Origin: Deefgea piscis
GTDB taxonomy: Bacteria > Pseudomonadota > Gammaproteobacteria > Burkholderiales > Chitinibacteraceae
Assembly: GCF_013284055.1 (NCBI RefSeq)
Contig: NZ_CP054144.1
Span: 1 to 42,722 of the forward strand
DNA: 42,722 nt
Reading direction: 5' to 3'
Of the stretch, positions 23,415 through 39,405 are shown piece after piece (the first letter of the stretch is position 1; each line of letters opens with the position of its first letter). The translations under genes were made by a program, and so were the position numbers. The notes under the pieces are model-generated. The model made no database searches, was not told where the DNA came from, and saw only the letters and a program-made list of their open reading frames with translations.

Positions 23415-25010
23415 GGGGATGCGGATAAAATCTTGGACTGGTTTTATGTAATTAACCCAAGCCTTTTTCGATATTCAATCGGACTAACTGCGCCGAGTGA
23501 AACCTTAATTCGCTTTTCGTTATACCATCGAATGTAGGTGTCGACCATCTGAGTGAATTGCTCAATGCTAACTCCCGCCCAGTCCCGATAATAAAATAAC
23601 TCCGTTTTCAAGCGCCCAAAGAACCCTTCGCAAGCCGCATTATCTGGTGAGCATCCTTTGCGAGACATGGATCGAACCAAGTTGGCATTGCTTATCCTTG
23701 TCAGCCAACCTGGCCAGCGGTAATGGGCTCCACGATCAGAATGAATGATAGGCCGCTCTTCGCGCTGAGCAACTGTTTCGATAGCTGTATCGAGCATCGT
23801 ATTGACGAGATCCGCATTAGGGTGCGTTCCAATGCTCCAGCTAATGACTAAGCCATCAAAGCAATCGATGATGGGCGACAAGTACACTTTGCCAGCAGGA
23901 ATATGGAATTCTGTAATGTCGGTCAGCCATTTCTCGTTCGGCGCAGCCGCTTGGAAATCGCGATTGATTAGGTTATCGGGGGCTGGGCTAATTTCGCCTA
24001 AGTATGAGCCATAGCGGCGTCGTTTCGGCTTGGAAACTAGCAACCCTTCCTGCTTCATTAAGCGCTGCACGACTTTCTCGGATAGGATGATGTCCTGCTC
24101 AGCCAAGGCCGCCTTCATGCGTCGGTAGCCGTAACAACGGTAATTCTGCTCGAAGATATCGCAGATGGTTTGCCGAACTGCAAGATATTTGTCTCCTGCT
24201 TTCAAGCAAGTTTTATGGTAGAAGTACGAGCTTCGTGGCAGCCTAAGCTGAGCCAATAGCTCAGACAGGCTGTATCGTTCTTTTTGGGCTTCAACCAACA
24301 GAGTTTTTTCTCGGTTACCCAGCTTCTGCAGATCAACGGCCACACTTTGTTCCAAGACTTCATTGGCGATTTTTAGAAGATCTCGCTCGAGTTGAAGCTG
24401 TTGCAGGTCGTTTTGTAGTATTTCGAGCTGGAGCTTTACTTGATCTGGCGAAAAATTGTCGTTAACTTTCATTGATACGGGGGCCTCATGGCCGAGTAAC
24501 TGGTTTTTCCAGTTGTACAGCGTGACCCTGCAAACCCCAAATTTCTCTGCAATCGCCTGAGCACTTCCATTTCGAACGCAAAGTGCCATGACCCCAGCTT
24601 GCTTTATTGAATCGGGGTAACTGATTTGTTTAAAGCTACCAATTATCCTTTTTCTGGACTCAGGAAATACCTCGCCAATCCAATCGCTTAATACGCTTCG
24701 ACAAGGGTAGCCCAATGCAGAAATGGTGCTCGCAATACACTGACCATGCGCTCGGTAATGCTCAACAGCGATCTGCTTCTGCGTTTGCGAATATCTTGGT
24801 TTCCTACGTGCATAGCCCGCTGGTAAGTCGAGCATCTGTACGTATTCCCGATACCAGCCTTTCAAGGCATTCTTGGTTGGGTAACCCAACTGACGTAAAG
24901 TTGGTCCGACGCGTTTACCTAGTTGAATATATAGCTGAACAGCACGCAATCTATCTTCGTACGAATACATGAACTACCCCTTAGTAGTCCAAGATTTTAT
25001 CCGCATCCCC
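23415..25010 (-). mobile_element. IS3-family insertion sequence, apparently complete
   Basis: The element is bounded by a perfect 25-bp inverted repeat starting GGGGATGCGGATAAAATC, at 23415-23439 and 24986-25010, and carries one long transposase gene. Flanking triplets differ (CAT on the left, CTC on the right), so there is no target duplication. Its left side abuts a truncated IS3 gene, consistent with rearrangement after insertion. It separates the plasmid backbone from the biosynthetic arm that starts at 25179. Confidence 0.88.
23444..24970 (-). CDS. IS3-family transposase, single-frame
   Basis: A 508-residue transposase with two helix-turn-helix regions at the N-terminus (about 1-60 and 110-165), a Leu-zipper-like helix (about 175-225) and a DDE integrase core. 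In the core, LTDITEF carries the first Asp, HSDRGAHY the second, and CEGFFGRLKTE the Glu. IS3 elements usually encode this as two overlapping frames joined by frameshifting; here both parts lie in one open frame. Intact, so probably active. Confidence 0.92.
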   Translation of the reverse strand: MYSYEDRLRAVQLYIQLGKRVGPTLRQLGYPTKNALKGWYREYVQMLDLPAGYARRKPRYSQTQKQIAVEHYRAHGQCIASTISALGYPCRSVLSDWIGEVFPESRKRIIGSFKQISYPDSIKQAGVMALCVRNGSAQAIAEKFGVCRVTLYNWKNQLLGHEAPVSMKVNDNFSPDQVKLQLEILQNDLQQLQLERDLLKIANEVLEQSVAVDLQKLGNREKTLLVEAQKERYSLSELLAQLRLPRSSYFYHKTCLKAGDKYLAVRQTICDIFEQNYRCYGYRRMKAALAEQDIILSEKVVQRLMKQEGLLVSKPKRRRYGSYLGEISPAPDNLINRDFQAAAPNEKWLTDITEFHIPAGKVYLSPIIDCFDGLVISWSIGTHPNADLVNTMLDTAIETVAQREERPIIHSDRGAHYRWPGWLTRISNANLVRSMSRKGCSPDNAACEGFFGRLKTELFYYRDWAGVSIEQFTQMVDTYIRWYNEKRIKVSLGAVSPIEYRKRLGLIT

Positions 25011-25178: not shown

Positions 25179-25826
25179 GTGACAAATTGTGATTTCAAAA
25201 CTACTTTGATTGCCTACCTTTCTAGCAAAGCTGACTCAGGAAGTGCCCTCCTAGTTCACCACGCTAGTGCTGACCGTGCCCCGCTAACAGATATTATTCG
25301 CCACCGAAATAAGACATATGCCGAACATGGCTTGAATTATTTGATTGCTGGGTTAGGTGATCTAGATGGAACTCCAGATCCAATAGATCTACGTAGTGAG
25401 CATGTGTGGGTAGTAGAAGATGGCTTAATCGTAGCTTCTCTACGCATGACAGCCCATCCATTCGAGATAGGAGATGTTATTCAATTGTTACCCGCTTTAA
25501 ATAAAGTGGGGCAAGGACATATTGAATTTGGCCGACTGGCTATTAGCAGTCGTAATCCCATAGCATTTGAGCAGCTTATGGCGACGGCCTGTCTATATGG
25601 TATTTCTCATAGATATACGGGCATCGTTGGAATGTGTCGCGCTGTACAAAAAAGGCTATTTGAGCGTTTCGGCCTAACTACCGTGACCAACGAACCATTT
25701 TTAGTACCTGCCCGCAATAATGGTACTTATTGGGTAATGGAAACCGACTGGAATCGTCTTTCCATCGCCCTTTCCAGAAAGTACAGCATAAAAAACCCCC
25801 AATCAGAAGCGCTGCATATTGCATAA
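25179..25826 (+). CDS. GNAT-type N-acyltransferase, LuxI/FeeM-like
   Basis: This 215-residue protein has the layout of autoinducer-synthase-like acyltransferases: RHRNKTYAEHG near residue 45, an acidic segment (DLDGTPDPIDLRSEHVWVVEDGL), strand VASLRM, GHIEFGRLAIS at about 112 and YTGIVGMCRAVQKRLFERFGL. Such enzymes (LuxI, FeeM and related) move a fatty-acyl group from acyl carrier protein to an amine. It is the first gene of a six-gene operon. It may acylate the product's amine; the family call is moderate. Start is a GTG at 25179. Confidence 0.65.
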   Translation: MTNCDFKTTLIAYLSSKADSGSALLVHHASADRAPLTDIIRHRNKTYAEHGLNYLIAGLGDLDGTPDPIDLRSEHVWVVEDGLIVASLRMTAHPFEIGDVIQLLPALNKVGQGHIEFGRLAISSRNPIAFEQLMATACLYGISHRYTGIVGMCRAVQKRLFERFGLTTVTNEPFLVPARNNGTYWVMETDWNRLSIALSRKYSIKNPQSEALHIA

Positions 25827-25847
25827 CAATCTAAGGATTAGCACATC

Positions 25848-26588
25848 ATGACGACTGAAAATCAGTTGAACTTTGACGTATTTTTTGCCCAATTGGATAG
25901 CAAACTTGATCATCTTTGGAGTGAGATCATTAAGAGCTCACCTTTAGCTAAATCGGTACTGAGCGGTGAGGCAACCAAAGAGCTTTATGCCATTTATATG
26001 ATTGAGACTTATCACTACACCTCACACAATGCGCGCAATCAAGCTTTAGTTGGTACGCGCCAAGATATTGAAAGCTTGCCATATTTAAAATTCTGTTTAG
26101 AACATGCCGCCGATGAAATTGGTCATGAGCGTATGGCACTCCATGATGTACGTAGCATTGGCCTACTGAATATTCAAGATAAGCCACCCCGCCCCTTATT
26201 CGCAACTGAAACACTAATTTCTTATCTTTACTGGATTTCTCTAACAGGCAATCCGTTACAGCGACTTGGATACAGCTACTGGGCAGAAAGCTGTTACCAC
26301 TATATAGATCCGTTGATTCAAGGAATCCGACAAACCCTAAATTTACAGCCTGCTCAGCTTACTTTTTTTATCGCACACTCTGATATTGATGCGGATCATT
26401 TTGAGCATGTTAAAGCAATCATTCGGCGTAGCTGCAAAACAGAATCCGATTTAGAAGCAATTGAATATGCATTAGAAACCACGCTAAAGCTTACAGGTCA
26501 GATGTTGGATGCCGTCTATGACGAGTACCAGAAACTTCTCAGTGGAACATCGAACCGATACAGTTTCCTTCTCCAAGCTGTGAGTTAA
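25848..26588 (+). CDS. Haem-oxygenase-like diiron oxidase (HDO superfamily)
   Basis: A 246-residue all-helical protein of the iron-containing redox enzyme family (relatives: UndA, BesC, the central domain of SznF). Candidate metal ligands fit the family spacing: Glu90-x2-His93 in DEIGHE, Glu147 in YWAESCY, and His177, Asp181 and His184 in HSDIDADH. HDO enzymes use O2 at two irons to oxidise amino-acid or fatty-acid substrates (N-oxygenation, C-C cleavage, desaturation). It lies 21 bp after the GNAT gene and 2 bp before the DUF3419 gene, so it is a pathway enzyme rather than a housekeeping one. Confidence 0.82.
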   Translation: MTTENQLNFDVFFAQLDSKLDHLWSEIIKSSPLAKSVLSGEATKELYAIYMIETYHYTSHNARNQALVGTRQDIESLPYLKFCLEHAADEIGHERMALHDVRSIGLLNIQDKPPRPLFATETLISYLYWISLTGNPLQRLGYSYWAESCYHYIDPLIQGIRQTLNLQPAQLTFFIAHSDIDADHFEHVKAIIRRSCKTESDLEAIEYALETTLKLTGQMLDAVYDEYQKLLSGTSNRYSFLLQAVS

Positions 26589-26590
26589 CA

Positions 26591-27673
26591 ATGGCGAATT
26601 ATTTTAAAAACCTTAACTACACGCTTGGAGATGAGGATCCAACACCTGAATTAGCGATGTTGCCAGTAAGCAGCGCTCATGTGTTGGCGATTGCCGATTG
26701 CGGTAGTCGCATCGTTCCATTACTTGCGAAGAAACCATCAAAGCTTACATGCGTAGATATAAACCGAGAGCAACTAGCGGTGTGTGAACTACGCATTGCA
26801 TTGCTTCGTGATGTTTCGCTTACAGAATACAAGCAGTTCCTTGGCTATGAAGGATTGATGCCACCTGAAACCAGGAAAGCTATATTCAACCAACTTTCAC
26901 TGAATGATGGCGCACGGAATATTCTCCGCGATATGTTTGAGAATATTAGTTGGGGCAGTATGCTTTACTGCGGAAAATTTGAACAAATGCTGCGTAAGCT
27001 TAAAGCAATAAACTCATTGTTTACAGGTAGTGCTGGCAGAGGTATTTTCGATTGTACTAACCTTTCAGAGCAACAGACATATTATCGGACCTCATTTCCA
27101 CATTGGCGTTGGCGATGTGTGCTGGCGTTGCTCGGCAACTCTACAGCCCTTAACTCTTTGCTTTATAAGGGAGATTTTCCAAAAAAAAATCGCCCATCTA
27201 GCCATTTTTCTATTTACAACCAGATCTTTGATACGTTACTGGGAAAACGTCTGGCTCGAAAAAGTTTTTTCTTACAGATATTATTTTTTGGAGAGATCCG
27301 CTATCAAGATGGATTGCCCTTGGAATGTTCTCCAGATGTATTTGAAGCAGCTAAGGCTGGGGCAAAACAATGCCAAATATCATTCTCTCATAATGACGTT
27401 TTTGTTGAGTCTCAACGGCATTATGACCTTGATTTTGTTTCGTTATCTGATGTTCCATCTTTTTTATCTCCAGATCAAGAAAACCAGTTCCTAACACGAT
27501 TACGCCTGAATCTAACACCTGGAGGGAAAGTGGTCGTCCGGGCTCACCTGCGTCAACCTTGGCCAGAAATGGAGGGCTTTGTTGATGTTAGTCAGAAGTA
27601 TCAAGACTCCGCAGAAAGTGAATCTACTCAGTTGTGGTCGTTCCACATCTACGAACATCAATTATTGGCTTAA
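26591..27673 (+). CDS. DUF3419/BtaA-like 3-amino-3-carboxypropyl transferase
   Basis: A 360-residue SAM-dependent enzyme resembling BtaA. HVLAIADCGSRIVPLL is the SAM-binding loop, LTCVDINREQLAVCELRIALL the acidic loop with the BtaA-type pattern, and FEQMLR and LTPGGKVVVRAHL complete the Rossmann fold. BtaA attaches the 3-amino-3-carboxypropyl group of SAM to diacylglycerol to begin betaine-lipid synthesis. No BtaB methyltransferase partner is present, so this homologue probably modifies another acceptor. A SpeD-like gene follows 14 bp later, raising the possibility that it uses decarboxylated SAM. Confidence 0.75.
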   Translation: MANYFKNLNYTLGDEDPTPELAMLPVSSAHVLAIADCGSRIVPLLAKKPSKLTCVDINREQLAVCELRIALLRDVSLTEYKQFLGYEGLMPPETRKAIFNQLSLNDGARNILRDMFENISWGSMLYCGKFEQMLRKLKAINSLFTGSAGRGIFDCTNLSEQQTYYRTSFPHWRWRCVLALLGNSTALNSLLYKGDFPKKNRPSSHFSIYNQIFDTLLGKRLARKSFFLQILFFGEIRYQDGLPLECSPDVFEAAKAGAKQCQISFSHNDVFVESQRHYDLDFVSLSDVPSFLSPDQENQFLTRLRLNLTPGGKVVVRAHLRQPWPEMEGFVDVSQKYQDSAESESTQLWSFHIYEHQLLA

Positions 27674-27687
27674 CAAGGAATTCATCT

Positions 27688-28077
27688 ATGGACGATACGG
27701 GCTACCATTATATTATTGACATGAAAGTTCGTTCAGCTGCTGTGCTCAATTCACCATTATTGCTTCAACGAATTTTTGATGAGGCTTTGCTTAGCTTCAC
27801 TGTACTCAAGTCTGATTATTTTCAATTCTCTGGTGGCGGGGAAGGGGTAACGGGATTTTTCTTGTTATCAGAATCCCACTGTTCATATCACACCTATCCA
27901 GAGAATAATTACATCGCTATCGACGTATTCACGTGCGGCAAGGATCCTGGAAACATCGCAGCGATTCTTGCCAAATCACTGGATGCAGTTACTTATAATT
28001 CGCGATATATCCTGCGTGGCTCAAAGCAAGCCGGATTAGTAATGCAACAAAATAAATTTGCGGCTTTAACGTCATGA
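27688..28077 (+). CDS. speD-like: SpeD-like pyruvoyl-dependent decarboxylase
   Basis: A 129-residue AdoMet decarboxylase-type proenzyme. The self-cleavage pair Glu62-Ser63 lies in LLSESHC, with His68 in YHTYPE and Cys83 in VFTCGK, exactly the numbering of catalytic residues in small bacterial SpeD. The auxiliary Ser55 is Thr here. Cleavage would turn Ser63 into the pyruvoyl cofactor. Canonical SpeD makes decarboxylated SAM for spermidine; some homologues have shifted to ornithine or arginine. ATG 27688 is chosen for its AAGGA site eight bases upstream. No spermidine synthase gene is nearby, so its role here is pathway-specific. Confidence 0.82.
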   Translation: MDDTGYHYIIDMKVRSAAVLNSPLLLQRIFDEALLSFTVLKSDYFQFSGGGEGVTGFFLLSESHCSYHTYPENNYIAIDVFTCGKDPGNIAAILAKSLDAVTYNSRYILRGSKQAGLVMQQNKFAALTS

Positions 28078-28152
28078 TTTATTCGCATTCTTACTTATTT
28101 TTGTATTTGTTGTATCAACAATATTTTCTAATTTAACTAATAGTTATTAATA

Positions 28153-28491
28153 ATGATTACTGCAACTTTTATTTTTGATAAAAAACAATTTGACGATCAG
28201 TTCCATGCTCTGGACAAATTAATTGCAGATGCAGCTCGAGCTTCAACCGATTATTTGGGTGAAGAGACGTGGGAAAATCCCACTTCCGGTCGGATTTCAA
28301 CAGTTTACTATTGGCGTACGGAAATTGGCTTACGTGAGTTAATGGTCAACCCTCATCACTTGGAGGCAAAACGTAGATATAGTGAATGGCTAAGTGGTTA
28401 CCGAGTCGAGATTGCTAAGGTGCTTCGCTGTTATGGAGATGGTTTACTTTCATCCACAGTAGAGCTTTCTGAAATGATAACAACAGCCTAA
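28153..28491 (+). CDS. Small alpha-beta-barrel protein (ABM-like)
   Basis: This 112-residue protein has the pattern of antibiotic-biosynthesis-monooxygenase-type ferredoxin-fold dimers: STVYYWRTEIGLRELMVNPHHLEAKRRYSEWL, a 'strand then W/H-rich helix' block, and a closing strand EIAKVLRCYGDG. Such proteins act as cofactor-independent oxygenases, haem-binding proteins or substrate chaperones. It starts 75 bp after speD-like in the same operon. The family call is from pattern only. Confidence 0.5.
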   Translation: MITATFIFDKKQFDDQFHALDKLIADAARASTDYLGEETWENPTSGRISTVYYWRTEIGLRELMVNPHHLEAKRRYSEWLSGYRVEIAKVLRCYGDGLLSSTVELSEMITTA

Positions 28492-28505
28492 GAAGGAGCC
28501 TAAAC

Positions 28506-29699
28506 GTGCATTTTATGCAACCGCACTCACTTCTTCATCGAGCGCTAGGTTTCTTCTTCGTAATAATTATATTATGGGGGATATGTATATTAACAACTAA
28601 TTTATTACACATTCCCAGCCCATCAAAATTATTAGGTCTAGGCTTGGAGTTGACCCCCCCCTCAAAGAGCAGCTCTTATTTTGATGCACGTTCAATTTCC
28701 CCTGCTCCGTCGGTTCGACCGCTTACTCAGCATCCAATTAAGCTTGATTTATTGATACCTTGGAAAAATGGTGCAACATTATCGCTTAATGAATTTTTAA
28801 AAGAGACCCATACTAACGCAATAGTTGTTCTGCACGAAAATAAGATAGTCTATGAGCGTTACTTTAATGGTTACACAGAGAGTTCGTTACTGCCATCCTA
28901 TTCGGTTAGTAAAGCAATTTTAGCTACTTTAGTAGGTATTGCTATTGACGAAAAGCGTATTGCTTCAATTAATTCTGATGTTCGTCCTATGCTACCTAAT
29001 GAAATTCGCCATCAGTACCCATATCCCATACGTACATGGGACTTATTAAATATGCGTGCGGGCATAGCGATTCCTGAAACCTATGATAGTATTTTTTCAA
29101 AAATCGCAGAAATGTATATTTCAACCGACTTACGTCGATTCATCACAAGTATACCCTCGCCTTCTGGTCATCCAGGTGCACGTTTTGAATATAGAAGCGC
29201 AGAATATTTACTACTTGGTGAGGTCTTACGACAGGCAACGGGCCAATCGCTATCTAGTTATTTACAGAAATCTATTTGGCACCCAATGGGTGCTGCATAT
29301 GATGCAACATGGAGCCTAGACAGTTCCACATCTGGTATTGAGAAGGCATTTTGTTGTATCAATGCCAGAGCCAGCGATTATGCGCGTTTCGGCCTACTTT
29401 ATCTCAATGAAGGGATTTGGAATGGTAAACGTATAGTGCCTGCAGATTGGATCAGACGAACTCGCATTCCAACGGGATATCGTGAATCATTGGGTTATAG
29501 TCACGGTTGGTGGATTCCACCCAAGAGTAGCAAAGATGGTGATTTTTCAGCAATCGGTATCTATGGCCAGTATGTTTATATCAATCCGACAAAACGTACT
29601 GTTATTGTCAAATTGAGCGATCATGGTGCAGAAGCAGATGAAATACTGACCTTGCAAGCATTTCAAAAAATATCGCAGAGCATACAACAAAAATATTAA
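28506..29699 (+). CDS. Membrane-anchored serine hydrolase (class C beta-lactamase-like)
   Basis: A 397-residue protein. An N-terminal hydrophobic helix (about 12-32, LGFFFVIIILWGICILTTNLL) anchors it in the membrane with the catalytic domain outside. The SxxK nucleophile motif is YSVSKAILATLVGIA (about residues 137-151), with a Tyr-x-Ser-type second motif in YRSAEYLLLGEVL and HGWW near the third. Relatives include NylB-type amidases, esterases and D-peptidases. In a biosynthetic operon it may release an acyl or peptidyl group during export, a pro-form activation step. GTG start with GGAG seven bases upstream. Confidence 0.8.
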   Translation: MHFMQPHSLLHRALGFFFVIIILWGICILTTNLLHIPSPSKLLGLGLELTPPSKSSSYFDARSISPAPSVRPLTQHPIKLDLLIPWKNGATLSLNEFLKETHTNAIVVLHENKIVYERYFNGYTESSLLPSYSVSKAILATLVGIAIDEKRIASINSDVRPMLPNEIRHQYPYPIRTWDLLNMRAGIAIPETYDSIFSKIAEMYISTDLRRFITSIPSPSGHPGARFEYRSAEYLLLGEVLRQATGQSLSSYLQKSIWHPMGAAYDATWSLDSSTSGIEKAFCCINARASDYARFGLLYLNEGIWNGKRIVPADWIRRTRIPTGYRESLGYSHGWWIPPKSSKDGDFSAIGIYGQYVYINPTKRTVIVKLSDHGAEADEILTLQAFQKISQSIQQKY

Positions 29700-29761
29700 G
29701 CTTTTTTTCCTAGCCCAATTTTATAGTCATAATGTGAAACAATCGACACAAGTGAAAACGC

Positions 29762-30043
29762 GTGGCGATTTTTCGCCTTAATATGAGCCCTTACAAAGTA
29801 CGCACTTTATTTAACCAAAGTCGGGGTGCTGCTGGCAGTCGAAGCTTGGTGTGGATGTTGGCCGCAGAAGGCATTCAAATTAGCCGTTACAAAGCCAGAG
29901 CCTTGATGCGCGAAGCGAATTTACGTAGCAAACAACCTGGGCAGCACCGATATAAGGTCGCAAAAGATGAGCGCCCTGATATTCCAAACTTACTTAATCG
30001 TGAATTTAATCCGCAACGACCAAATCAAATTTGTGAGGTAGCC
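29762..30043 (+). pseudogene. IS3-family OrfB fragment
   Basis: This N-terminal piece of an IS3-type OrfB (MSPYKVRTLF, then GSRSLVWMLAAEGIQISRYKARALMREANL and REFNPQRPNQI) stops where the next IS3 element begins. The remaining catalytic region is missing. It is a relic of an earlier insertion after the serine-hydrolase gene. Confidence 0.8.
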
Positions 30044-30095
30044 TGAGTTTGGTGGACACGCCTGTTTGGTAAAATCGAGCCAACAGGAGGCCGTA

Positions 30096-30410
30096 ATGAG
30101 TAAAAAAGAAAATCAACGTTACACACCGGAATTTAGAAGTGAAGCGCTTAAGTTCGTCAGCGAACAGGGTATGTCCGTGGCGCAGGCTGCCCAGCGGCTC
30201 AATATGTCTGTCGGTACTTTAGCGTCGTGGAATACCCAAGCACGTAAAACTCATCTGGCTAAGCCACCTGAATCGCTCAACGTCACCGAACTCACCGCCG
30301 AGTTAAAGCAGCTGCGCAAAGAATTGGCTGAGACCAAAATGGAGCGCGATATTTTAAAAAAGGCCACGGCGTACTTTGCCAGGGAATCACTGCCAAGTAC
30401 GCGTTCATAA
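30096..30410 (+). CDS. IS3-family transposase OrfA
   Basis: A 104-residue OrfA with a helix-turn-helix (YTPEFRSEALKFVSEQG, then QAAQRLNMSVGTLASW) and a Leu-zipper helix (LTAELKQLRKELAETKMERDIL). A run of six A followed by G at 30356-30362 is the usual site for the -1 frameshift that joins OrfA to OrfB. OrfB is dead here, so OrfA alone can at most act as a regulator. Confidence 0.85.
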   Translation: MSKKENQRYTPEFRSEALKFVSEQGMSVAQAAQRLNMSVGTLASWNTQARKTHLAKPPESLNVTELTAELKQLRKELAETKMERDILKKATAYFARESLPSTRS

Positions 30411-30982
30411 AAGCCGAGCGGTTGCATTACCCTGTAAAAATCCTCTGCCGTGTGCTTTCTGTTTCACGAGCAGGATTTTATGGCTGGATGAAACGAGCGC
30501 CATCCAAACGCCATCTTGAGGACGCGAAACTGCGCATTGCGATTCGCACCGCAGATACCAAAACGCGCAGCACGTATGGAGCAAAGCGTTTACAAGATGA
30601 GCTGGCGGATGACGGCATTATTGCAGGAAGGGACAGGATTGCTCGGTTACGGCGCGAGGCGGGGATTAGATGCATTCAAAAACGAAAGTTTAAAGCGACC
30701 ACCAATTCCAATCATGCATTGCCAGTTACAGATAATTTATTAGGCCAAGAATTTAAGCCCACTCGACCTAATCAAGTCTGGGTGAGCGATATCACCTATG
30801 TTTCGACGGATGAGGGCTGGTTGTATTTGGCGGGAATCAAAGATGTGTTTACTTGCGAAATCGTCGGCTACGCAATGGGTGCGCGGATGACGTAAGAATT
30901 GGTGAGTCAAGCGTTGTGGAATGCCGTGAAATGGAAGCGGCCACCTGCAGGACTCATCTTGCATTCGGACCGAGGTAGCCAA

Positions 30983-32437
30983 GGCAGATTCAACCGGTCG
31001 TCGCAACACTCGTTTGTTGAACAGATTTTAGATACTCATTCAGTGCTTCGATAGGAGTTTTACAACCGAGTGTTTTTCTGGGCCGGCTGTTTAGTGTATT
31101 GGCTACAGCTTGAATCTCTTGGGCACTCCATCGCGATAAGTCAGTGCCTTTCGGGAAGTATTGCCGCAAAAGACCATTCGTATTCTCGTTTGTGCCACGC
31201 TGCCATGGACTGTGAGGGTCGGCAAAGAAGACCTTTATTCCTGACTCAATAGTAAAGCGGGCGTGATCTGATAGCTCCTTCCCTCGGTCCCAAGTTAATG
31301 ATCGCCACAATTGGGCAGGTAGGCTAGTCACCGTCTTCTTCAGTGCATTGCCCATGGTGACGGCTCCATAGCCGGCAAGTGCGGGGCCGTTCTTCACTCG
31401 AGGAGTCTGCCCATAGCCCTCCTCACGAGGCAGATGAACGAGCATGGTGAATCGACTCGATCGCTCGACCAAAGTCCCTATCGCGGATCGGTTCAAACCA
31501 ATGATCAAGTCTCCCTCCCAGTGCCCTGGTAGAGCACGATCCTCCACCTCAGCAGGGCGATTGGAGATCATAACGTCTTCGCTAACATGTGCCCACGCTT
31601 TGGCCTGTGCTCTGGCTCTCGGTACGCGCAATGCCCGTCCAGTACGCAGGCAGCTCACCAGATCACGCTTGAGAGCTCCCCGACCCTGTATATAGAGGGC
31701 CTGATATATGGCTTCGTGTGAGATTCGCATAGATTCGTCACCTGGGAAGTCAATTTGAAGTCGATTGGCAATCTGCTCAGGCGACCAACCATTGACCCAT
31801 TTACGGTCACCGCGATGTGGTTTATTTCGTCCCTTGAACGGCGTCTGTCTAGGTCCTGCAATCTCAAGTCCATCAGTACCATGAACTTTACCCTCCAAGC
31901 GTTCTTGCACGTAGTGGCGCAATCGCAGATTAGTTACCAGTTTCGCTGGCTTCGGTCTTTTAGCCGCCAGTTCCGCCTTCCACTGTGCGACTGAAGCACG
32001 ATATTCGAGTCGGCCACTACGAGTTGCTGCGTTACGAGTTAACTCCCGAGACACTGTCGACGGACTTCGCCCAAGGCGGCGAGCAATCTCACGCACACCG
32101 ACACTTTGCGCTTGGAGTAGTCCAATTTCTTCTCGCTCAGCGAATGATAAGTATCTTCCTGATATGTGCTTAGACATAAACAATGGCATCCCGCCGCGAT
32201 AACGGAACCAGCGTGTGCCTACTGCTTGCGATACGCCAACGGCCTCCGCTGCCTTTTCGCTTGTGATTCCGGTAGCAATCTGTTCCCAAAATAACCGCTC
32301 GGTTTCTCGGCGAAGTGATGGCGCACCTGGCGAGCGCATCGCACCTCGCCCCGTCAACTTCAGCATCCACCCTGCAAGTCGTCCCATATATACACCTTCA
32401 TAATAATACGGTGTTGCGACGACCGGTTGAATCTGCC
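30983..32437 (-). mobile_element. IS30-family insertion sequence, complete
   Basis: Perfect 27-bp terminal inverted repeats beginning GGCAGATTCAACCGGTCG lie at 30983-31009 and 32411-32437. The element is flanked by CAA on both sides, a 3-bp target duplication inside the IS3 orfB. It carries one intact transposase on the minus strand. The clean duplication marks it as the youngest insertion in this stack. Confidence 0.92.
30990..32387 (-). CDS. IS30-family transposase
   Basis: This 466-residue transposase has two helix-turn-helix motifs (TSEKAAEAVGVSQAVGTRWF and REIARRLGRSPSTVSREL) and a DDE core (HWEGDLIIG, LTWDRGKELSDH, PWQRGTNENTNGLLRQYFPKGTDL). The ATG at 32387 with GAAGG upstream is used because a longer upstream frame would begin outside the inverted repeat. 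The stop lies inside the left repeat. Intact. Confidence 0.93.
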   Translation of the reverse strand: MGRLAGWMLKLTGRGAMRSPGAPSLRRETERLFWEQIATGITSEKAAEAVGVSQAVGTRWFRYRGGMPLFMSKHISGRYLSFAEREEIGLLQAQSVGVREIARRLGRSPSTVSRELTRNAATRSGRLEYRASVAQWKAELAAKRPKPAKLVTNLRLRHYVQERLEGKVHGTDGLEIAGPRQTPFKGRNKPHRGDRKWVNGWSPEQIANRLQIDFPGDESMRISHEAIYQALYIQGRGALKRDLVSCLRTGRALRVPRARAQAKAWAHVSEDVMISNRPAEVEDRALPGHWEGDLIIGLNRSAIGTLVERSSRFTMLVHLPREEGYGQTPRVKNGPALAGYGAVTMGNALKKTVTSLPAQLWRSLTWDRGKELSDHARFTIESGIKVFFADPHSPWQRGTNENTNGLLRQYFPKGTDLSRWSAQEIQAVANTLNSRPRKTLGCKTPIEALNEYLKSVQQTSVATTG

Positions 32438-32828
32438 CAATATTGTGCGCACAATTATCGTCGGCTGATTGCGCAGTTTGGGTTGAAAGCCTCGATGTCA
32501 CGCAAGGGCAATTGCTATGACAATGCACCGATGGAAAGCTTCTGGGGCAGTTTGAAGAACGAGTTGATTCATCATCATCGCTATACAAAACGTGAATTCG
32601 CCATCAGCAGCATCAAGGAATACATAGAAATATTTTATAACCGTCAACGGCGACATTCTCGCCTTGGCAATGTAGCGCCTGCGGTATTTGCCCAAAAACT
32701 TCAACAAAAACCGCAAGTGCGTATGAAATAGGTGTGTCTACTATTGTCAGGACAGATCACATTATTGCTTACGAGGTGGAGCATAACACCTCTAATCAGG
32801 TGGCCAAATTCAGTGTGCCACTACATAT

Positions 32829-33320
32829 CTACAATTCGGTACTATACAGTAAACGCATTCGTAGCCAATGCATACAGGCAAGGTGCTGCAGGTCATGGCT
32901 ACGCAAGAGATGGGCCAATCCCAGTAAACTTACTTCTCCGTATGAGCCAAAATTAGCCCGCCGAGAGTAATCTTCAGTTTTCAGAGCTTTTAGCATTTTT
33001 ACTGTCTGGAGACGTGCTAATCTGAATTGCATCAGCACCTGCTTAGGATCAGCTTGTTTATATTGATTTAGCTCTGCCAGTAAGTAACCATCAAGTGACG
33101 GTAACTCTGGCATTGTTTCATTAACTGTGCGATGAAAACGGTGTTGATACCCTTGAATTTCTATATCCAACAAATGACATAGTTGGCCAGTTATAGCGAA
33201 TCTCTCTCCTGGTATCCCATCCCAACTTTCGGGCTCCTGGTGAAAAAGTAGAGAAGGGAAATCATCAAATAGATTTTTAAGCTCATCAGGCATCGCCAGT
33301 AAGTGATCGAAAATATGCAC
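32829..33320 (-). CDS. DinB-like metal-binding helical protein
   Basis: This 163-residue protein fits the DinB four-helix fold: His in ITGQLCHLLDIEIQGYQHR (about residues 43-60) and HDLQHLACMHWL near the C-terminus give the metal-binding His set. DinB proteins include thiol transferases and stress enzymes of undefined function. The GTG start directly abuts the permease stop and has a strong AGGAGG inside that gene, so it is the last gene of the minus-strand operon. It may protect against or modify the pathway product. Confidence 0.7.
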   Translation of the reverse strand: MHIFDHLLAMPDELKNLFDDFPSLLFHQEPESWDGIPGERFAITGQLCHLLDIEIQGYQHRFHRTVNETMPELPSLDGYLLAELNQYKQADPKQVLMQFRLARLQTVKMLKALKTEDYSRRANFGSYGEVSLLGLAHLLRSHDLQHLACMHWLRMRLLYSTEL

Positions 33321-34748
33321 TTAACCTCCTGTCAATGAAATCAGCAAGTATCCTGCACTACCAACCAAAATTACATTAAACAAGGCTAACAAGAAGGCAA
33401 AGCGGATTAACTCCTGCTCTTCTTCTGCGCTGCCTTTTGCCAAGCCAAGTAATAATGCGACGATAGGCATCGATCCAAGTGCCGCATGACCCGCGGCGCT
33501 GTTTTGTACAGCAGCCAGTACGGACAATACATTTTCAGGCAAATTCATATGGGCAATTGACGGCATTACAATTGCATTCCCCCCCACATTTGAGCCTGTT
33601 ATATAACCGGCCAGCCCACCAAACGCGGCAATTAGAGGTGCTAAGGCAGCAGTGTCAAGACTACTTAGCGCCAAACGAACGCCATCTAAAAAACCAGCTT
33701 TTACTAGCAACTGGGACATAAATAAGAAGAAAAAGATGGTAATCAAAGGACGCTTTGCGCGTGAAAGGAAAGGCTTTGCTAACTCTTCTCCACCTAGTTT
33801 CACCATCAAAATGAAATTTACCAGTAGTAGCGCAATGCCCGGAGAGGCAAGTGGTTTCCAGCTAACCTGCTCGCCATGAATAACCCATAGAGTATCGAGC
33901 CCCAGACTCAGATTTGTTGCTTTTAATGAAATGATTGCGATCAACAGTGCTGCATAAGGCCAAGCCTCAACAGGAAAACGGATATTAGATTTCAAATGTA
34001 AGCGAGCCCAAATGATCCCAACTAAGGTGACTGTTGCTGCAGCCCCTACACCAGCTACTTCTGGGCCAACATCGCGACTAATTAGGTGGAGTATGCTTAC
34101 AAATGCAACAGAGAATACAACCCCTAAGGCATAAGCAGTAACTTTACGATGCCCTGCTAACCAAAGCGCCAGCAGAACTCCGGCCGTAAATACAGGGGCG
34201 CTGGTCCAGGCCGTCCATGCTCCAAGAGTTTGTGAAGGCAATCCAGCGAGTTCGGCACCAATTACTGTGGCGAGCCCAAGGGTTCCCCAAGGCATAATAC
34301 ACATACCAGTCAGAGCAACCCTCAGCGCTACTTTTCTCCCCATTAGCGCAATCAGCAGAGGAACAGTCGCAATAAGCGATACGCCAAAGCCGGTCATTGC
34401 CTCTAGTAAAGGGGCAAGTCCGAGCACCAAAAAAACGACTTGTGCTGCGCCCTGCCAACCCAACTGTTTCACCCATTTAGATAGAGCATCATTTGCTCCC
34501 GCTCGCTCCAAATAAATTACAAATACCAGACCTGGCGCAATAACAAAAGCTGTACTCATGAAGAGCACTAACGAGTCTACAAAAACGCTACTCAATGTGC
34601 TGAATAAAAAAGGCTGTGCCACATCAAATAGCCATAATAAAAACGCCAAAAGTGCACCGCCAAGAGCGGCATACATTGGAGGTTTCCGGAAACCCATAAT
34701 CATTGTTATAACGAGAACAATAGGCGAAAGTTGGAGAATTGATGTCAT
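33321..34748 (-). CDS. LctP-family permease
   Basis: A 475-residue integral membrane protein with about 12 hydrophobic segments. It has the L-lactate permease family block EAMTGFGVSLIATVPLL at about residues 114-130 and the family C-terminal GSNVGGNAIV and AVQNSAAGHAALGS region. LctP permeases carry 2-hydroxy- or 2-oxo-carboxylates with protons. In this operon it could import a carboxylate precursor or export the product. It lies 80 bp after the HAD gene; a hairpin ACAGAGCC/GGCTCTGT (34768-34789) in that gap may tune expression. Confidence 0.85.
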   Translation of the reverse strand: MTSILQLSPIVLVITMIMGFRKPPMYAALGGALLAFLLWLFDVAQPFLFSTLSSVFVDSLVLFMSTAFVIAPGLVFVIYLERAGANDALSKWVKQLGWQGAAQVVFLVLGLAPLLEAMTGFGVSLIATVPLLIALMGRKVALRVALTGMCIMPWGTLGLATVIGAELAGLPSQTLGAWTAWTSAPVFTAGVLLALWLAGHRKVTAYALGVVFSVAFVSILHLISRDVGPEVAGVGAAATVTLVGIIWARLHLKSNIRFPVEAWPYAALLIAIISLKATNLSLGLDTLWVIHGEQVSWKPLASPGIALLLVNFILMVKLGGEELAKPFLSRAKRPLITIFFFLFMSQLLVKAGFLDGVRLALSSLDTAALAPLIAAFGGLAGYITGSNVGGNAIVMPSIAHMNLPENVLSVLAAVQNSAAGHAALGSMPIVALLLGLAKGSAEEEQELIRFAFLLALFNVILVGSAGYLLISLTGG

Positions 34749-34828
34749 TGCATACTTTTTAATGGCTACAGAGCCATTAAAGGCTCTGTACAGGGAAGAA
34801 AGGGAAACTGCTAAGCAGACTAAAATTA

Positions 34829-35446
34829 TCAGCTGAGAGATTTCACAATAGTCTGTGCTTGAAAGGCTGATTTCAGATCGCGTAAATTGTCATAGCTTTC
34901 TCGATTAGGAAAACGCTGTCGAATATGCTCGGGAGCATTAATAAACGCTCCAAAGTCGGCTTTTTCAAGCATTCCTAAATCATTAAAAGAATCACCTGCC
35001 GCAAGTACAGTAAAACCTAGGGATTGCATTGCAGCAACCACCTTAGGTTTTTGATCATCCAATCTAGCTTTCCATCCACTTAGATAGCCATCATCACCAA
35101 CTGTAAGATTGTGACAAAAAATACTAGGCAACCCTAGTTTAGGAGCTAGTGGACCTAAAAATTCATAGAAGGAATCCGAAACTAAAGCAACGGGCCAAGA
35201 AGATCTCAGCTCATCTAGAAACTCGCGCGCGCCTGAAAGTGGTTCTACAGAACACACGATTTCCTTCAGATCATGATAAGCAATCTTCCTAGAGCGAAGA
35301 GTTTGTATCCGATGCTGCATTAGCAGCGAGAAATCAGGCTCATCCCTCGTAGTAAGCTTTAACTCATCCACCCCTGTTGCCTGAGCAATTTCAATCCAAA
35401 CCTCAGGTAGGAGTACTCCTTCCACATCAAGGCAGACAAAAATCAT
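34829..35446 (-). CDS. thrH-like: ThrH-like HAD phosphatase / phosphotransferase
   Basis: About 205 residues, matching ThrH: VCLDVEGVLLPEVWIEIAQATG (nucleophile region; the second Asp of DxD is Glu, as in ThrH), LVSDSFYEFLGPL (motif II) and AAGDSFNDLGML (motif III). ThrH hydrolyses O-phosphoserine and can pass the phosphate to homoserine. The SbnA-like enzyme in the same operon is expected to consume O-phosphoserine, so both may draw on one pool, or this enzyme may dephosphorylate an intermediate. ATG 35446 has AAGGA five bases upstream, inside the end of the FAD gene, so they are coupled. Confidence 0.8.
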   Translation of the reverse strand: MIFVCLDVEGVLLPEVWIEIAQATGVDELKLTTRDEPDFSLLMQHRIQTLRSRKIAYHDLKEIVCSVEPLSGAREFLDELRSSWPVALVSDSFYEFLGPLAPKLGLPSIFCHNLTVGDDGYLSGWKARLDDQKPKVVAAMQSLGFTVLAAGDSFNDLGMLEKADFGAFINAPEHIRQRFPNRESYDNLRDLKSAFQAQTIVKSLS

Positions 35447-37292
35447 AACAATCCTTTTCAATTAATGGCTCGGCCAGAATACCAAGACACTCCAGAACCG
35501 CACCTTGAGCATCACTCAAAGCACGGGAATACGCACCCGCAGAAGGGATATAGTGGTTGTAATAAGTAGCCCCCTCAGTTAGCGGCCCCAGTACCCACAA
35601 ATTTTCTACTTTGCATCCGGCTTGATTCAGTGGGCTACCATGCCCCACAATCTCGACCCCATCCAAGCCCTGAGAGTTGTAAACAGGACGAACTATACCA
35701 GCCGAAAATAAATCTGCCAGAACCGATGAATCTGTGTTTAACAGGCCGCTGCTAGGAAGACGAGCACTAATTAGCCAGTCAAGTTCCGGCAAATGATTGC
35801 TGTTAAGCTGATAGCGTTCTTTATGCTCAAGCCAGACAGGCTCGTCACCTGGGTTTGCAAGTTTTACAACGCCAGCGGCAATCAGTGCAAGAAAGTCTTG
35901 ATGCCTCTCTTTTTGAGGCCCTGCAACCGTGCGATTAATTAAAGGAACCCAGCTAGAATAAAAATCACGATGTGACGTTTCATTTAACCCTTTGAAATCA
36001 ATTAGGCTACGGAGGGTGTCCCTTAAGTCCCGCCATACTTCTAAAGCCGCTTTGATTGGGCTATTAGTCAAACCCGAAGCTCCTTCAGCCAAATCCTCTT
36101 TGATAAACTGCACTAGCCAATCAACATATTTATCGCCACTTAAACCAGGCGGTAGCTCTGTTGGCAAATACTCCAGTGGGTCAAACGATCCATATTGCTC
36201 TGCGAGTGCAGAAAACAGTTCATCTAGTTTTGCGCTGCGGAAGGCGTGTGCTAATTGGTCGCGCAACTGATCATTTGATAGATCTGAGGATTCTGTAATT
36301 TGCTGATGCGTCAAATAAAATGCCGCACGCATTTCAGCTATCATCAATGGCAATATATCGTCAACAAAATCAAGCTGTCCTTCTTTGTTTTGCTTACGTA
36401 ATTGTAACTGTAAACCCGGGGTTATAAAAAGAGGCTGATGTCGTTTTCTTGTTGTTGTTGTCTCAGGCCTTACTCTAAATGGAAGCCCTGTGCGGGAGTA
36501 TAATACAATCAGTGGCTCGTTCCCTGAAGGAAGATAGTGACTCAGGCCATCCTCACGGATATACCGACCACCCCTGCCGCTACTTAACGAGGCAAGAACA
36601 TCCATTGTTGCGAGACCGAAGCCTTCCACCCCCACGACTGTACCGGCATCTATTTCTGCAATACTTGCAGGCAATGGATAAACATCAGTGATATGACGCT
36701 TAGTTTGCGTTACCACTTTTCGACCTGTATGCCCCAGTGTGAGAAAAAGTTTATCAACTTCGATATCGATTTGGGCTTCGCTCGAAATTAGAAAGCCGCC
36801 TTCGGTTGTAGTTTGTAATTTAATGGCGCGCTCTCTATGTAGCTGTAAGCTAACATTAGGAGGAAGGATCGATGTAATATTTTCAAAACTCCAAGCCAAA
36901 TACTCGCCAATCAATCGTCGCGGTAAAAAGTCTGTCTGGGCAACCAATTTCTGGTCAGTTGCATCAGGCTGCTCGTTAAAACTAATACCACGAGCAATGC
37001 ACCATTGGTAAAAGTCAGGTCCTGTACGTTCTATAGCGCTCTGATTGGCAGCATAATCGGGGAAAACAGAAAGCTGAAAAGCCACAGTATTTAATAATAA
37101 ATAATCTGGCTGATCACAACTATGCAAACCAACTCCTGGCTGATTAGGTTCGAATATTATTATATGTAAGTGCTGTTCCTTGAGTTCTGTGGCCAAAGCT
37201 AGCAAGCGTTCAAGAATTGCCAAACCTCTCGAGCCTAAACCGATAATACCGACTCGGAGTAACGTGGGAACTTCAAATTTGGGGGTTACCAT
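35427..37292 (-). CDS. Large FAD/NAD(P)-binding oxidoreductase
   Basis: This 621-residue protein begins with a dinucleotide-binding motif (VGIIGLGSRGLAILERLL, residues about 14-31). It has an FAD-type acidic end (IIIFEPNQPGVGLHSCDQPDYLLLN) and a second Gly-rich region (TVVGVEGFGLATMDVL). This matches the FAD-NAD(P)-binding family related to flavin N-monooxygenases. It probably oxidises an amine or amino-acid intermediate, for example N-hydroxylation of diaminopropionate; that is inference. It overlaps the SbnB-like gene by 7 bp and the HAD gene by 20 bp, so the three are coupled. Confidence 0.75.
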   Translation of the reverse strand: MVTPKFEVPTLLRVGIIGLGSRGLAILERLLALATELKEQHLHIIIFEPNQPGVGLHSCDQPDYLLLNTVAFQLSVFPDYAANQSAIERTGPDFYQWCIARGISFNEQPDATDQKLVAQTDFLPRRLIGEYLAWSFENITSILPPNVSLQLHRERAIKLQTTTEGGFLISSEAQIDIEVDKLFLTLGHTGRKVVTQTKRHITDVYPLPASIAEIDAGTVVGVEGFGLATMDVLASLSSGRGGRYIREDGLSHYLPSGNEPLIVLYSRTGLPFRVRPETTTTRKRHQPLFITPGLQLQLRKQNKEGQLDFVDDILPLMIAEMRAAFYLTHQQITESSDLSNDQLRDQLAHAFRSAKLDELFSALAEQYGSFDPLEYLPTELPPGLSGDKYVDWLVQFIKEDLAEGASGLTNSPIKAALEVWRDLRDTLRSLIDFKGLNETSHRDFYSSWVPLINRTVAGPQKERHQDFLALIAAGVVKLANPGDEPVWLEHKERYQLNSNHLPELDWLISARLPSSGLLNTDSSVLADLFSAGIVRPVYNSQGLDGVEIVGHGSPLNQAGCKVENLWVLGPLTEGATYYNHYIPSAGAYSRALSDAQGAVLECLGILAEPLIEKDCYDFCLP

Positions 37293-38293
37293 CTGTTTGT
37301 TTCCTCAAAAAAATGAGGAATTGCAATGGCGTGGTTTTGCTCAAGAGCTTCATCATAAATTGCTTTTCCTAGGGCCAGGTCTAGTATGCCCATCCCGAAA
37401 GGGGAGTAAACCAATGGACGGCTGTCATCGACACTGATTTGTCCGCGAATAAGCTCAGCCAGAGTTCCTGTAACAAAATCACGACTTCCAGTCAATTGCT
37501 CCGCCAAATGCGGGCTGGTGCTTGCTTTTAGACAATGGTCGACATCATCAAAGATATTCCAAGCTCCGACAATTAGTTCAGGAGCTATATCTCGTAAGGA
37601 GATATTCAATACAATTTGCCCCGGTCTGAATCGCATAGGTTCCAACACATAGGGCGTGCCAGCATTCGTTGCAAATACCACGATATCGGCTTCAAGAGCG
37701 GCAGAGAGATCTATCGCGACCCCTGTTTCTGCATCACTTTGCTCTGCAGCATAGTTACTGAAGGCTTGTGCAGAAGCTGCGTCTTTATCGTAAACAGAAA
37801 CTTTTTGTAGTTGCCAATCATCCGCAAAAAACATATCTAAAATGTTGCGCGCAATAATGCCTGCCCCAATAAAGGCAATGCTTTCTACTTTTCGATGCTG
37901 TTTATTAAGCCAAAAAGCGCCTAGTACAGCAGATGCAGCAGTTCGAGCAGCACTGATCAGAGATGCCTCTAGACAAGCAAAGGGGTAGCCAGTTTCTTGG
38001 TCATTCAAAATTAATACCGCAGAAGCACGAGGAATGCCTTGGCGAATATTATCCGGGAAGCTTGAAATCCACTTAATCCCAGAAACATTGACATCTGAAT
38101 GAATCGACGCAGGTAACGCGATAATTCTATTTTTCTCATTTTGTGGGAAGCGTAGAAAGTAGCTATCCGGATTGACGGTTTCTCCATCGTGATGTGCAAG
38201 ATAACTCGCTTCAACACTGTTAAGAGTCTGACGTGGGTTTTCGGCTAAAATCTTCTTAATTACAGCGCCAGGAATTATATTAAATTCAAACAT
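37286..38293 (-). CDS. sbnB: SbnB-like N-(1-amino-1-carboxyethyl)glutamate dehydrogenase
   Basis: A 335-residue member of the ornithine cyclodeaminase family with the SbnB signature: SGIKWISSFPDNIRQGIPRASA, LEASLISAARTAASA and a Rossmann motif FIGAGIIARNI. SbnB oxidises the conjugate made by SbnA with NAD+, giving L-2,3-diaminopropionate and 2-oxoglutarate. It lies 34 bp after sbnA in the same operon. In staphyloferrin B, zwittermicin and alanosine pathways the pair supplies diaminopropionate. Length and blocks are complete. Confidence 0.88.
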   Translation of the reverse strand: MFEFNIIPGAVIKKILAENPRQTLNSVEASYLAHHDGETVNPDSYFLRFPQNEKNRIIALPASIHSDVNVSGIKWISSFPDNIRQGIPRASAVLILNDQETGYPFACLEASLISAARTAASAVLGAFWLNKQHRKVESIAFIGAGIIARNILDMFFADDWQLQKVSVYDKDAASAQAFSNYAAEQSDAETGVAIDLSAALEADIVVFATNAGTPYVLEPMRFRPGQIVLNISLRDIAPELIVGAWNIFDDVDHCLKASTSPHLAEQLTGSRDFVTGTLAELIRGQISVDDSRPLVYSPFGMGILDLALGKAIYDEALEQNHAIAIPHFFEETNRW

Positions 38294-38327
38294 ATAAGAT
38301 CAAAAATCCAAATAAGTTAACAAGATA

Positions 38328-39350
38328 TTAAGCTAGCAAAATGGGGGTGCGCTCTTCTGGCTCGCCCTCAAGGATCGTTCCAAAATGGCTTTCCACCCAC
38401 AAATCATCATAAATTGTGTCCAAATAGCGCTCCCCTAAGTCAGGAGAAATAGCAACAACTGTCGCGTCTTTAGGAAGTCGTGCACTCCAAGCTTTAACAG
38501 CGGCAAGAACAGTACCAGTTGAGCCTCCAGCCAATAAACCGTTACTGCTCGCCATGTAGCGGCACATTTTGACTGCTTCCGACTCTGCGATCATTTCAAA
38601 GGCATAAATACCTTTCGGTGAATATATTTCAGGACGACGGCTTGTCCCTAAGCCTGGGATATACCGCTTGGATGGCGCAAAACCAAAAGTCACTGAGCCG
38701 ATGCTATCTACCGCTATAACTTTTGTTTCTGGATGAAATTCATTGAAATACTTTACGCAGCCCATCAGAGTCCCGCCGGTTCCTGCGCCTATAAATAGAT
38801 AATCAATTTTTTCAAATGTGTCTGCAATTGCTTGTGCAGTTCTTCTGTAATGAGTAAGTGGATTTTCAGGGTTTGCATACTGGTTTAGCCAGCAATAATG
38901 TGCATCCTGTTTCAACATTTGCTGTATGTAAGCAATGCGCGACCCTAAAAATCCACCATTTTCATCCCTCTGGTCAATCACGATTACGTCGGCACCAAAT
39001 GCTTTCATCATTTTTATGTTGTGTGCTGAAGTATTTGGATCAACAACGCAAGTAAATTGATAACCGCGTTCCGCACAAATCATGCTTAGGGCTACACCTA
39101 GACTACCTGAAGAAGACTCAATCAACTTAGTGTCAGGGGTGATTTGACCTCTAGCCTCCAGGTCCTCAATCATGCCTAATGCTGCTTTTATCTTGACAGA
39201 GCCTGCTGGATTCAACGCTTCGAGCTTCAGATATAACTTTTTTATTCCCAAGCCTTGAACATGCATGAAGTTGTGATCGTTAATTATTCTTGATAAAGGC
39301 CCCACAGACGCGCCTAGAAATGTAAGTGAATCTCTCAAAACGGCCACCAT
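38328..39350 (-). CDS. sbnA: SbnA-like PLP-dependent 2,3-diaminopropionate synthase
   Basis: A 340-residue cysteine-synthase-fold enzyme: NPAGSVKIKAA holds the PLP Lys (Lys53), ESSSGSLGVALSM the substrate-binding loop, and GAGTGGTLMG the phosphate cradle. It fits SbnA, which joins O-phosphoserine and glutamate into N-(1-amino-1-carboxyethyl)glutamate. Cysteine synthase is the alternative, but the adjacent sbnB decides. It is the first gene of a six-gene minus-strand operon with an FNR-type box 55 bp upstream. Confidence 0.88.
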   Translation of the reverse strand: MVAVLRDSLTFLGASVGPLSRIINDHNFMHVQGLGIKKLYLKLEALNPAGSVKIKAALGMIEDLEARGQITPDTKLIESSSGSLGVALSMICAERGYQFTCVVDPNTSAHNIKMMKAFGADVIVIDQRDENGGFLGSRIAYIQQMLKQDAHYCWLNQYANPENPLTHYRRTAQAIADTFEKIDYLFIGAGTGGTLMGCVKYFNEFHPETKVIAVDSIGSVTFGFAPSKRYIPGLGTSRRPEIYSPKGIYAFEMIAESEAVKMCRYMASSNGLLAGGSTGTVLAAVKAWSARLPKDATVVAISPDLGERYLDTIYDDLWVESHFGTILEGEPEERTPILLA

Positions 39351-39405
39351 AAAATTACAAAAGATTACAAAAGATTACTTAGTAAGTATTAATTTAACTG
39401 CTTGT

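Follow-up and report, generated by a model that had tools for sequence, protein, structure and literature searches.

In the staphyloferrin B system (sbn), SbnA and SbnB provide L-2,3-diaminopropionate (Dap), and synthetases of the NIS type, that is, siderophore synthetases independent of nonribosomal peptide synthetases (NRPS), are encoded beside sbnA and sbnB. The betaine-lipid synthase BtaA carries out aminocarboxypropyl transfer from S-adenosylmethionine (SAM or AdoMet). Dap is also made and N-oxidized for L-alanosine (aln/ala), for which the proposed route involves carrier-bound Dap, an acyl-CoA-dehydrogenase-like hydroxylase and a cupin, as set out in excerpts of PMC11705231 and PMC7347517. 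The structure 8CP2 is that of the L-aspartate N-hydroxylase of Streptomyces sp. V2, a flavoenzyme of the CreE/FzmM type (excerpts of PMC10404684). Here we describe relatives of these genes arranged as two converging sets of six (arm A and arm B) on a 42,722-base stretch of Deefgea piscis DNA (the window), which is the entire contig C2 of genome G000. We consider it likely that the arms are two independent, horizontally moving biosynthetic operons lying side by side, each bordered by insertion sequences (IS), with arm B making and N-oxidizing Dap and arm A following a SAM-derived plus acyl route.

All twelve open reading frames (ORFs) are open, at the places and on the strands given by an earlier sequence-only reading of this DNA; arm A occupies 25179-29699 on the forward strand and arm B runs from 39350 to 32829 on the reverse strand. 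Most of the gene names in that reading were confirmed by Pfam or NCBIfam, the GNAT/LuxI-like and ABM-like labels falling below curated cut-offs. The twelve genes are listed below; percentages for arm A are identities to the copy in genome G300 of the same family.

25179..25826, forward: arm A gene 1, GNAT protein with a LuxI/FeeM-type predicted fold (47%)
25848..26588, forward: arm A gene 2, haem-oxygenase-like diiron oxidase, HDO (PF14518, 64.1 bits, cut-off 28.9; 72%)
26591..27673, forward: arm A gene 3, DUF3419/BtaA-like SAM-binding enzyme (PF11899, 102.5 bits, cut-off 28.2; 63%)
27688..28077, forward: arm A gene 4, SpeD-like pyruvoyl decarboxylase (PF02675, AdoMet_dc, 82.6 bits, cut-off 25; TIGR03330, AdoMet decarboxylase class 1b, 80.2 bits, cut-off 75.65; 66%)
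28153..28491, forward: arm A gene 5, small, weakly ABM-like protein (72%)
28506..29699, forward: arm A gene 6, beta-lactamase-fold serine hydrolase (PF00144, 100.1 bits, cut-off 27; 50%) with a hydrophobic N-terminus judged from its sequence
38328..39350, reverse: arm B gene 1, SbnA, by family joining O-phosphoserine and glutamate (TIGR03945, 407.1 bits, cut-off 349.95)
37286..38293, reverse: arm B gene 2, SbnB, by family releasing Dap (TIGR03944, 415.9 bits, cut-off 326.9)
35427..37292, reverse: arm B gene 3, CreE/FzmM-type FAD/NADPH N-hydroxylase with Dap as the predicted substrate (PF13454, 113.3 bits, cut-off 21.8; 8cp2, E 1.8e-59)
34829..35461, reverse: ThrH-like HAD phosphatase, placed in arm B by position only (PRK13582, 224.9 bits, cut-off 133)
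33321..34748, reverse: arm B gene 5, divergent LctP-type permease (PF02652, Lactate_perm, 49.8 bits, cut-off 27)
32829..33320, reverse: DinB_2/YfiT-like protein at the end of arm B, included by position only (PF12867, 28.3 bits, cut-off 24.8)

The sequence-only reading had proposed one split pathway combining diaminopropionate and SAM-derived chemistry, a proposal that neighborhood and co-occurrence tests do not support: each arm was found with different partners, the pattern named beforehand as speaking against a shared pathway. When 150 relatives were searched for the HDO, the one match beyond the window was 73% identical and lay in G300, whose chromosome carries all six arm-A genes in the order and orientation of the window, on a stretch of 47.7% G+C with a left flank of 65.9%. 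Nothing in the 33 kb around this locus matched an arm-B protein, and a single pathway is unsupported because arm A is complete in a genome where no homologue of the arm-B FAD enzyme was found (E <= 1e-60). SbnA and SbnB of G300, at 50-52% identity, belong to a different cluster; locus L020 of that genome (G300:C1, about 462-469 kb; 7119-10600 and 11542-13839) has an alanosine-like layout of genes for a carrier protein, an acyl-CoA-dehydrogenase-like protein, SbnA, SbnB and an adenylation enzyme, with a phosphoenolpyruvate-mutase-like gene upstream, in the same genome as the stand-alone arm A.

The first genes of arm A recur more widely. An HDO-alignment scan of species genomes, which worked from short conserved patterns and falls short of a complete census, gave 94 relatives; among the best 80 of these loci, 16 have DUF3419 (44-49% identity) directly after HDO (13 from Pseudomonas, two from Corallococcus and one from a Lysobacterales metagenome-assembled genome), and a GNAT before HDO was matched by tblastn in 14 of the 16. 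Of the other two, L026 has runs of N at that position, and the contig of L083 starts within HDO. A seventeenth HDO locus with DUF3419, from Frankia (L082), shows 21% identity. No SpeD, ABM, hydrolase or arm-B match was obtained in the best 80 loci (E <= 1e-4; flanks of up to 10 kb per side). The next two genes encode a BioF-like pyridoxal-phosphate enzyme and an AMP-binding enzyme in 13 of 13 Pseudomonas core loci, and an Asp/Asn-hydroxylase-like and an Acetyltransf_6-type protein in both Corallococcus loci. G000 and G300 were the two genomes with a DUF3419 match among 43 of the family, and again among 399 of the order; a search of 274 class genomes gave four matches (G000 and three at 23% identity); among plasmids there were four Rhizobium/Shinella records at 21-24% identity over part of the length, and the 12 pattern matches in viral contigs included no relative. 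The GNAT had no match among plasmids by tblastn. A second GNAT-HDO family is seen in L003 (6114-11171, on a P. coronafaciens plasmid) and similar loci, where the set comprises a phenylacetate-CoA-ligase-like enzyme, GNAT, HDO, a flavodoxin, an EamA transporter and an alpha/beta hydrolase, with anthranilate synthase genes adjoining on the plasmid.

Arm B was traced through its FAD enzyme, homologues of which (E <= 1e-80) are present in 15 of 149 sampled genomes of the Pseudomonas genus to which G342, the genome of Pseudomonas locus L034, belongs. Fourteen sample loci other than that of G342, with three from arm-A genomes (G342 included), make up 17 Pseudomonas-genus loci of 14-20 kb each. SbnA, SbnB and the FAD enzyme stand in the window's order in all 17, and the LctP-type permease (50-52% identity) is found in eight; none of the 17 gave an arm-A, ThrH or DinB match. 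Plasmids of Rhizobium sp. CB3171 (L024) and Streptomyces nigrescens (L025) carry the same three-gene core, with no permease match and with no arm-A genes close by. The FAD enzyme was matched in three of 43 family genomes, namely G000 and two at 35% identity that are not SbnA/SbnB-linked; G000 alone of the 43 has both the FAD enzyme and DUF3419. The FAD enzyme was also matched five times in 398 phylum genomes (E <= 1e-40), namely in G000 and four at 30-35% identity. SbnB had three matches in 61 relatives, and the permease had three partial matches among plasmids, covering 21-27% of the query.

Across the 149 genomes, DUF3419 occurs in nine (E <= 1e-30), the FAD enzyme in 15, and both in two (G342 and G743), where about 0.9 would be expected; Fisher tests gave p = 0.23 (two-sided) with G342 and 0.56 (one-sided) without it, G342 being the search centre, chosen because both genes are present. 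In G743 the two genes share a contig and lie hundreds of kilobases apart. Within the window the arms are separated and flanked by IS elements, which the sequence-only reading had omitted:

29762..32731, no strand assigned: IS3-family pieces with an inserted IS30-type gene (HTH_21, HTH_Tnp_1, rve, HTH_38), dividing arm A from arm B
23444..24970, reverse: IS3-type transposase bordering arm A (profile match)
39543..41450, forward: IS66-type transposition genes bordering arm B (profile match)

The FAD enzyme is central to the interpretation of arm B. Among PDB sequences it has one relative, 8cp2/8cp5 (E 1.8e-59), and the alignment to that L-aspartate N-hydroxylase scores 205 bits and is near full-length, spanning residues 12-598. 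The protein is thus upheld as an N-oxygenase homologue, the sequence-only reading having suggested N- or C-oxidation. According to excerpts of PMC10404684, aspartate is contacted in 8CP2 by Arg13, Arg276, Arg416, Arg577 and Asn413, and the substitution N413E abolishes aspartate hydroxylation. The window protein keeps the flavin-proximal Arg266, Arg409, Arg412 and Arg416, together with Arg13 and Arg276, but has Asp at 413 and Ser at 577, and it shares an operon with SbnA and SbnB. We aligned 29 such proteins and built a tree from them, 20 being SbnA/SbnB-linked and nine counted as unlinked (8cp2 among these, its neighbors unchecked). The 20 linked proteins all fall on one side of a single branch (98/93; 96% of 200 bootstrap trees). 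All of them have Ser or Thr at position 577, and 19 have Asp or Glu at position 413, L146 retaining Asn; Arg266, Arg409 and Arg412 are kept throughout, and Arg416 and Arg13 in 19 (not L146). Arg577 is kept in seven of the nine unlinked proteins. In Dap, an amino group replaces the side-chain carboxylate of aspartate. The loss of a carboxylate-binding arginine and the gain of an acid fit Dap in place of aspartate, and direct N-oxidation of free Dap is therefore predicted.

Several observations weigh against this assignment. The tree is unrooted and has long branches, including those of L146, L025 and L005. Of the five residues that contact aspartate in 8CP2, the window enzyme retains Arg13, Arg276 and Arg416; Arg276 is kept in 13 of the 20 linked proteins, the window's included, and its retention does not help a switch from aspartate to Dap. 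Asp stands at 413 in six of the nine unlinked proteins, so residue 413 alone is no marker of Dap use, and for this reason we give more weight to the change at 577 and to operon linkage; two unlinked proteins, L005 and L118, also have Ser at 577. The remainder of arm B raises its own difficulties. The ThrH-like protein (213.3 bits against TIGR02137, cut-off 223.4) and the DinB_2-like protein are assigned by position only because they are unmatched in the arm-B relatives; they may not belong to arm B, and the phosphatase might remove the O-phosphoserine that SbnA requires. In L114, the one Pseudomonas locus tested, a gene resembling glutathione S-transferase (GST) sits between the FAD enzyme and the permease, where ThrH would be, and is followed by a GntR/aminotransferase regulator.

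Two further arrangements around such flavoenzymes were observed. In L140 (4140-11430), a variant of arm B from the Pseudomonas genus has a DAO, a periplasmic-binding protein and a Lys/Orn-type N-monooxygenase, a second N-oxygenase, before SbnA, and L141 and L146 contain ORFs similar to this layout. In L005 (6232-12221, a Methylomagnum plasmid), a related FAD N-oxygenase occurs without SbnA/SbnB, beside an FAD oxidoreductase, a GST, a haloacid dehalogenase and a DMT transporter.

We propose that in arm B, SbnA and SbnB, both above their curated cut-offs and thus upheld as diaminopropionate enzymes, would make Dap from O-phosphoserine and glutamate, as their two families suggest. The flavin N-hydroxylase would then act on free Dap, carrying out one or several oxidations of an amino group, as its homology, pocket residues and operon linkage suggest. 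Candidate products are N-hydroxy-Dap, an oxime or nitroso form, or 3-nitro-L-alanine; the degree of oxidation is a guess, 3-nitroalanine being suggested because successive oxidations are reported for the aspartate N-hydroxylase family. The permease may move this product or a related acid.

For arm A, the evidence differs from gene to gene. The HDO call stands, with PF14518 above its cut-off and all six candidate diiron ligands present (E90, H93, E147, H177, D181 and H184); these are kept in 20 of 20 rows spanning all six in a 21-row alignment, the remaining HDO, from L083, being cut short by the contig start with its last four ligands present. PDB 3dde is a sequence relative of this protein (263 bits). 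Compared with SznF, whose ligands are E281, H311, D315 and H318 plus E215 and H225 (excerpts of PMC11705231), the last four ligands have the same spacing, and the first two differ from the E215/H225 spacing. The SpeD-like enzyme likely starts at ATG 27688 instead of GTG 27634. Alignment to 1vr7 shows that its pyruvoyl Ser, its His and its Cys are kept, as is the HTxPE proline; S63, H68 and C83 are the AdoMet decarboxylase residues named in excerpts of PMC10407285, a paper that also gives residues diagnostic of enzymes acting on SAM, Orn or Arg; SAM is the presumed substrate here. PF02675 has one match in the whole genome of G000 and one in that of G300, in both cases the arm-A gene, in a search that finds matches in eight control genomes, E. 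coli among them; since this SpeD is the sole match, it does not duplicate a housekeeping enzyme.

The DUF3419 protein shares its Pfam family and SAM-binding-type fold with BtaA, and its model (mean pLDDT 84.7) shows a weak likeness to class I SAM-dependent methyltransferases; Foldseek returned no match at E <= 0.001, and a PDB sequence search found no relative. It differs from the described DUF3419 setting in adjoining HDO, GNAT and SpeD, and from the Rhizobium/Shinella plasmid proteins by its low, partial identity. As to the GNAT/LuxI-like label, the structural half survives: the folds nearest to the model (mean pLDDT 74.7) are the acyl-homoserine lactone (AHL) synthases MesI, RpaI, LasI and BjaI (TM about 0.5-0.6), with FeeM at rank 11. 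The profile half does not, since the protein scores 17.4 bits against FeeM PF21926 (cut-off 27) and no match to the LuxI AHL synthase profile PF00765 (Autoind_synth) is listed at E <= 0.1; its HDO and DUF3419 neighbors also set it apart from the LuxI synthases and FeeM. The ABM-like label is weak, with 14 bits against PF13826 for the window protein and 21.9 for the G300 copy, both below the cut-off of 25. A chromosomal paralogue of this small protein (60% identity) lies at L002 (G000:C1, about 3,077,000), with no other arm-A match in 3.1 kb there.

Taken together, the arm-A genes probably form a pathway that joins SAM-derived and acyl chemistry. In such a scheme, the group transferred by the DUF3419 enzyme would be aminocarboxypropyl or, with the SpeD-like enzyme as supplier, aminopropyl; the LuxI/FeeM-fold enzyme would N-acylate; the diiron HDO would oxidize or cleave the amino compound once acylated; and the serine hydrolase would complete the product, the order and substrates of these steps being our suggestion.

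How do other explanations fare against two independent operons? That arm A modifies or acylates Dap from arm B in one split pathway seems to us very unlikely. The arms do converge on one contig, and three of 16 arm-A genomes (G342 among them) carry arm B elsewhere (FAD enzyme, E <= 1e-10), for which reason the arms could cooperate in some strains; the co-occurrence counts are also small and the power of the test low, so a weak association may exist, and these points tell against full independence. Against a shared pathway stand the complete arm A of G300, which has no FAD homologue at the threshold used, the absence of any adjacent pair of arms in the best 80 of 94 HDO loci or the 17 Pseudomonas-genus FAD loci, the lack of significant association in the 149 genomes, and the IS elements between the arms. 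The same IS-type genes on all sides, with the low G+C (41% in arm A and 45% in arm B vs about 50% for the first 12 kb of the main G000 contig), would suit inert passenger genes on an IS-rich plasmid. We find this highly improbable, given that all twelve ORFs are open, that the examined catalytic residues of HDO, SpeD and the FAD enzyme are kept, and that gene order is conserved relative to distant relatives.

The two operons might also do chemistry other than we propose. The flavoenzyme could still turn aspartate into nitrosuccinate as a nitrite donor, with Dap as the nitrosation acceptor, as proposed for one L-alanosine nitrogen. Its aspartate N-hydroxylase homology and retained aspartate contacts speak for this, as does the presence of CreE/CreD homologues in the alanosine cluster (excerpts of PMC11705231 and PMC7347517). 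We nonetheless judge it unlikely, because Arg577 is lost in all 20 linked enzymes and an acid occupies 413 in 19 of them, and N413E kills aspartate hydroxylation in the 8CP2 enzyme (excerpts of PMC10404684). In addition, profile scans of the 39 window ORFs, on which all our statements about families missing from the window rest, matched no nitrosuccinate lyase of the CreD type (the CreE/FzmM partner), cupin, carrier or acyl-CoA dehydrogenase, a search that did not extend beyond the window to the chromosome; the last three absences also distinguish arm B from the alanosine route as excerpted. As the sequence-only reading had said, no NRPS or NIS synthetase family was found in these scans, and the lack of an IucA/IucC-type NIS match separates arm B from staphyloferrin B. 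Arm A, for its part, might be a pathway to membrane lipids (betaine lipids) or to acyl signals (AHL-like) and not an antibiotic-type one, a reading to which we attach a small but real chance. DUF3419/BtaA family membership and the AHL-synthase-like GNAT fold favor it, and in L044 and L045 (Bacteriovoracia) a fatty-acid-desaturase-like gene near the GNAT-HDO pair suggests an acyl-lipid role. Its patchy, island-like distribution (2 of 43 family genomes and 9 of 149 Pseudomonas-genus genomes), accessory enzymes that vary by lineage, and GNAT scores below the Autoind_synth and FeeM cut-offs argue otherwise.

Returning to the two independent operons, a bolder version is conceivable, which we put forward tentatively and with more doubt than belief: the SbnA/SbnB-linked flavoenzymes may be a new class that N-oxidizes free Dap, carrier-free, to an N-oxy or nitro amino acid that mimics aspartate (for example, 3-nitro-L-alanine), and arm A may be a new pathway family in which SpeD supplies decarboxylated SAM to the DUF3419 transferase, followed by LuxI-fold acylation and HDO oxidation. 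Among the open-licence PMC papers listed by our literature searches, no title or abstract opening named either operon.

The replicon that carries the arms has plasmid genes, with profile matches to a replicase (PF03090), a ParA-type protein, KfrA_N and Mob_Pre; its ends do not overlap, and we call it plasmid-like. The plasmid backbone also encodes an M78 peptidase-domain protein (756-1979) and a Fic-domain protein (2571-4118). No Rfam match reached the gathering score over 23000-42722.

These are apparently two uncharacterized and undescribed operon families, and treating the arms apart avoids a misleading hunt for one combined product. Arm B, whose operon is scattered over Pseudomonas, Rhizobium, Streptomyces and this contig, offers a testable case of an aspartate N-hydroxylase fold retooled for a diamine, with changes at 413 and 577; if our reading is true, it would be a carrier-free route to N-oxidized Dap, the sole alternative in the excerpts cited above being the carrier-bound one proposed for alanosine. 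Arm A would place DUF3419 in a biosynthetic context, and a predicted AdoMet decarboxylase outside spermidine synthesis.

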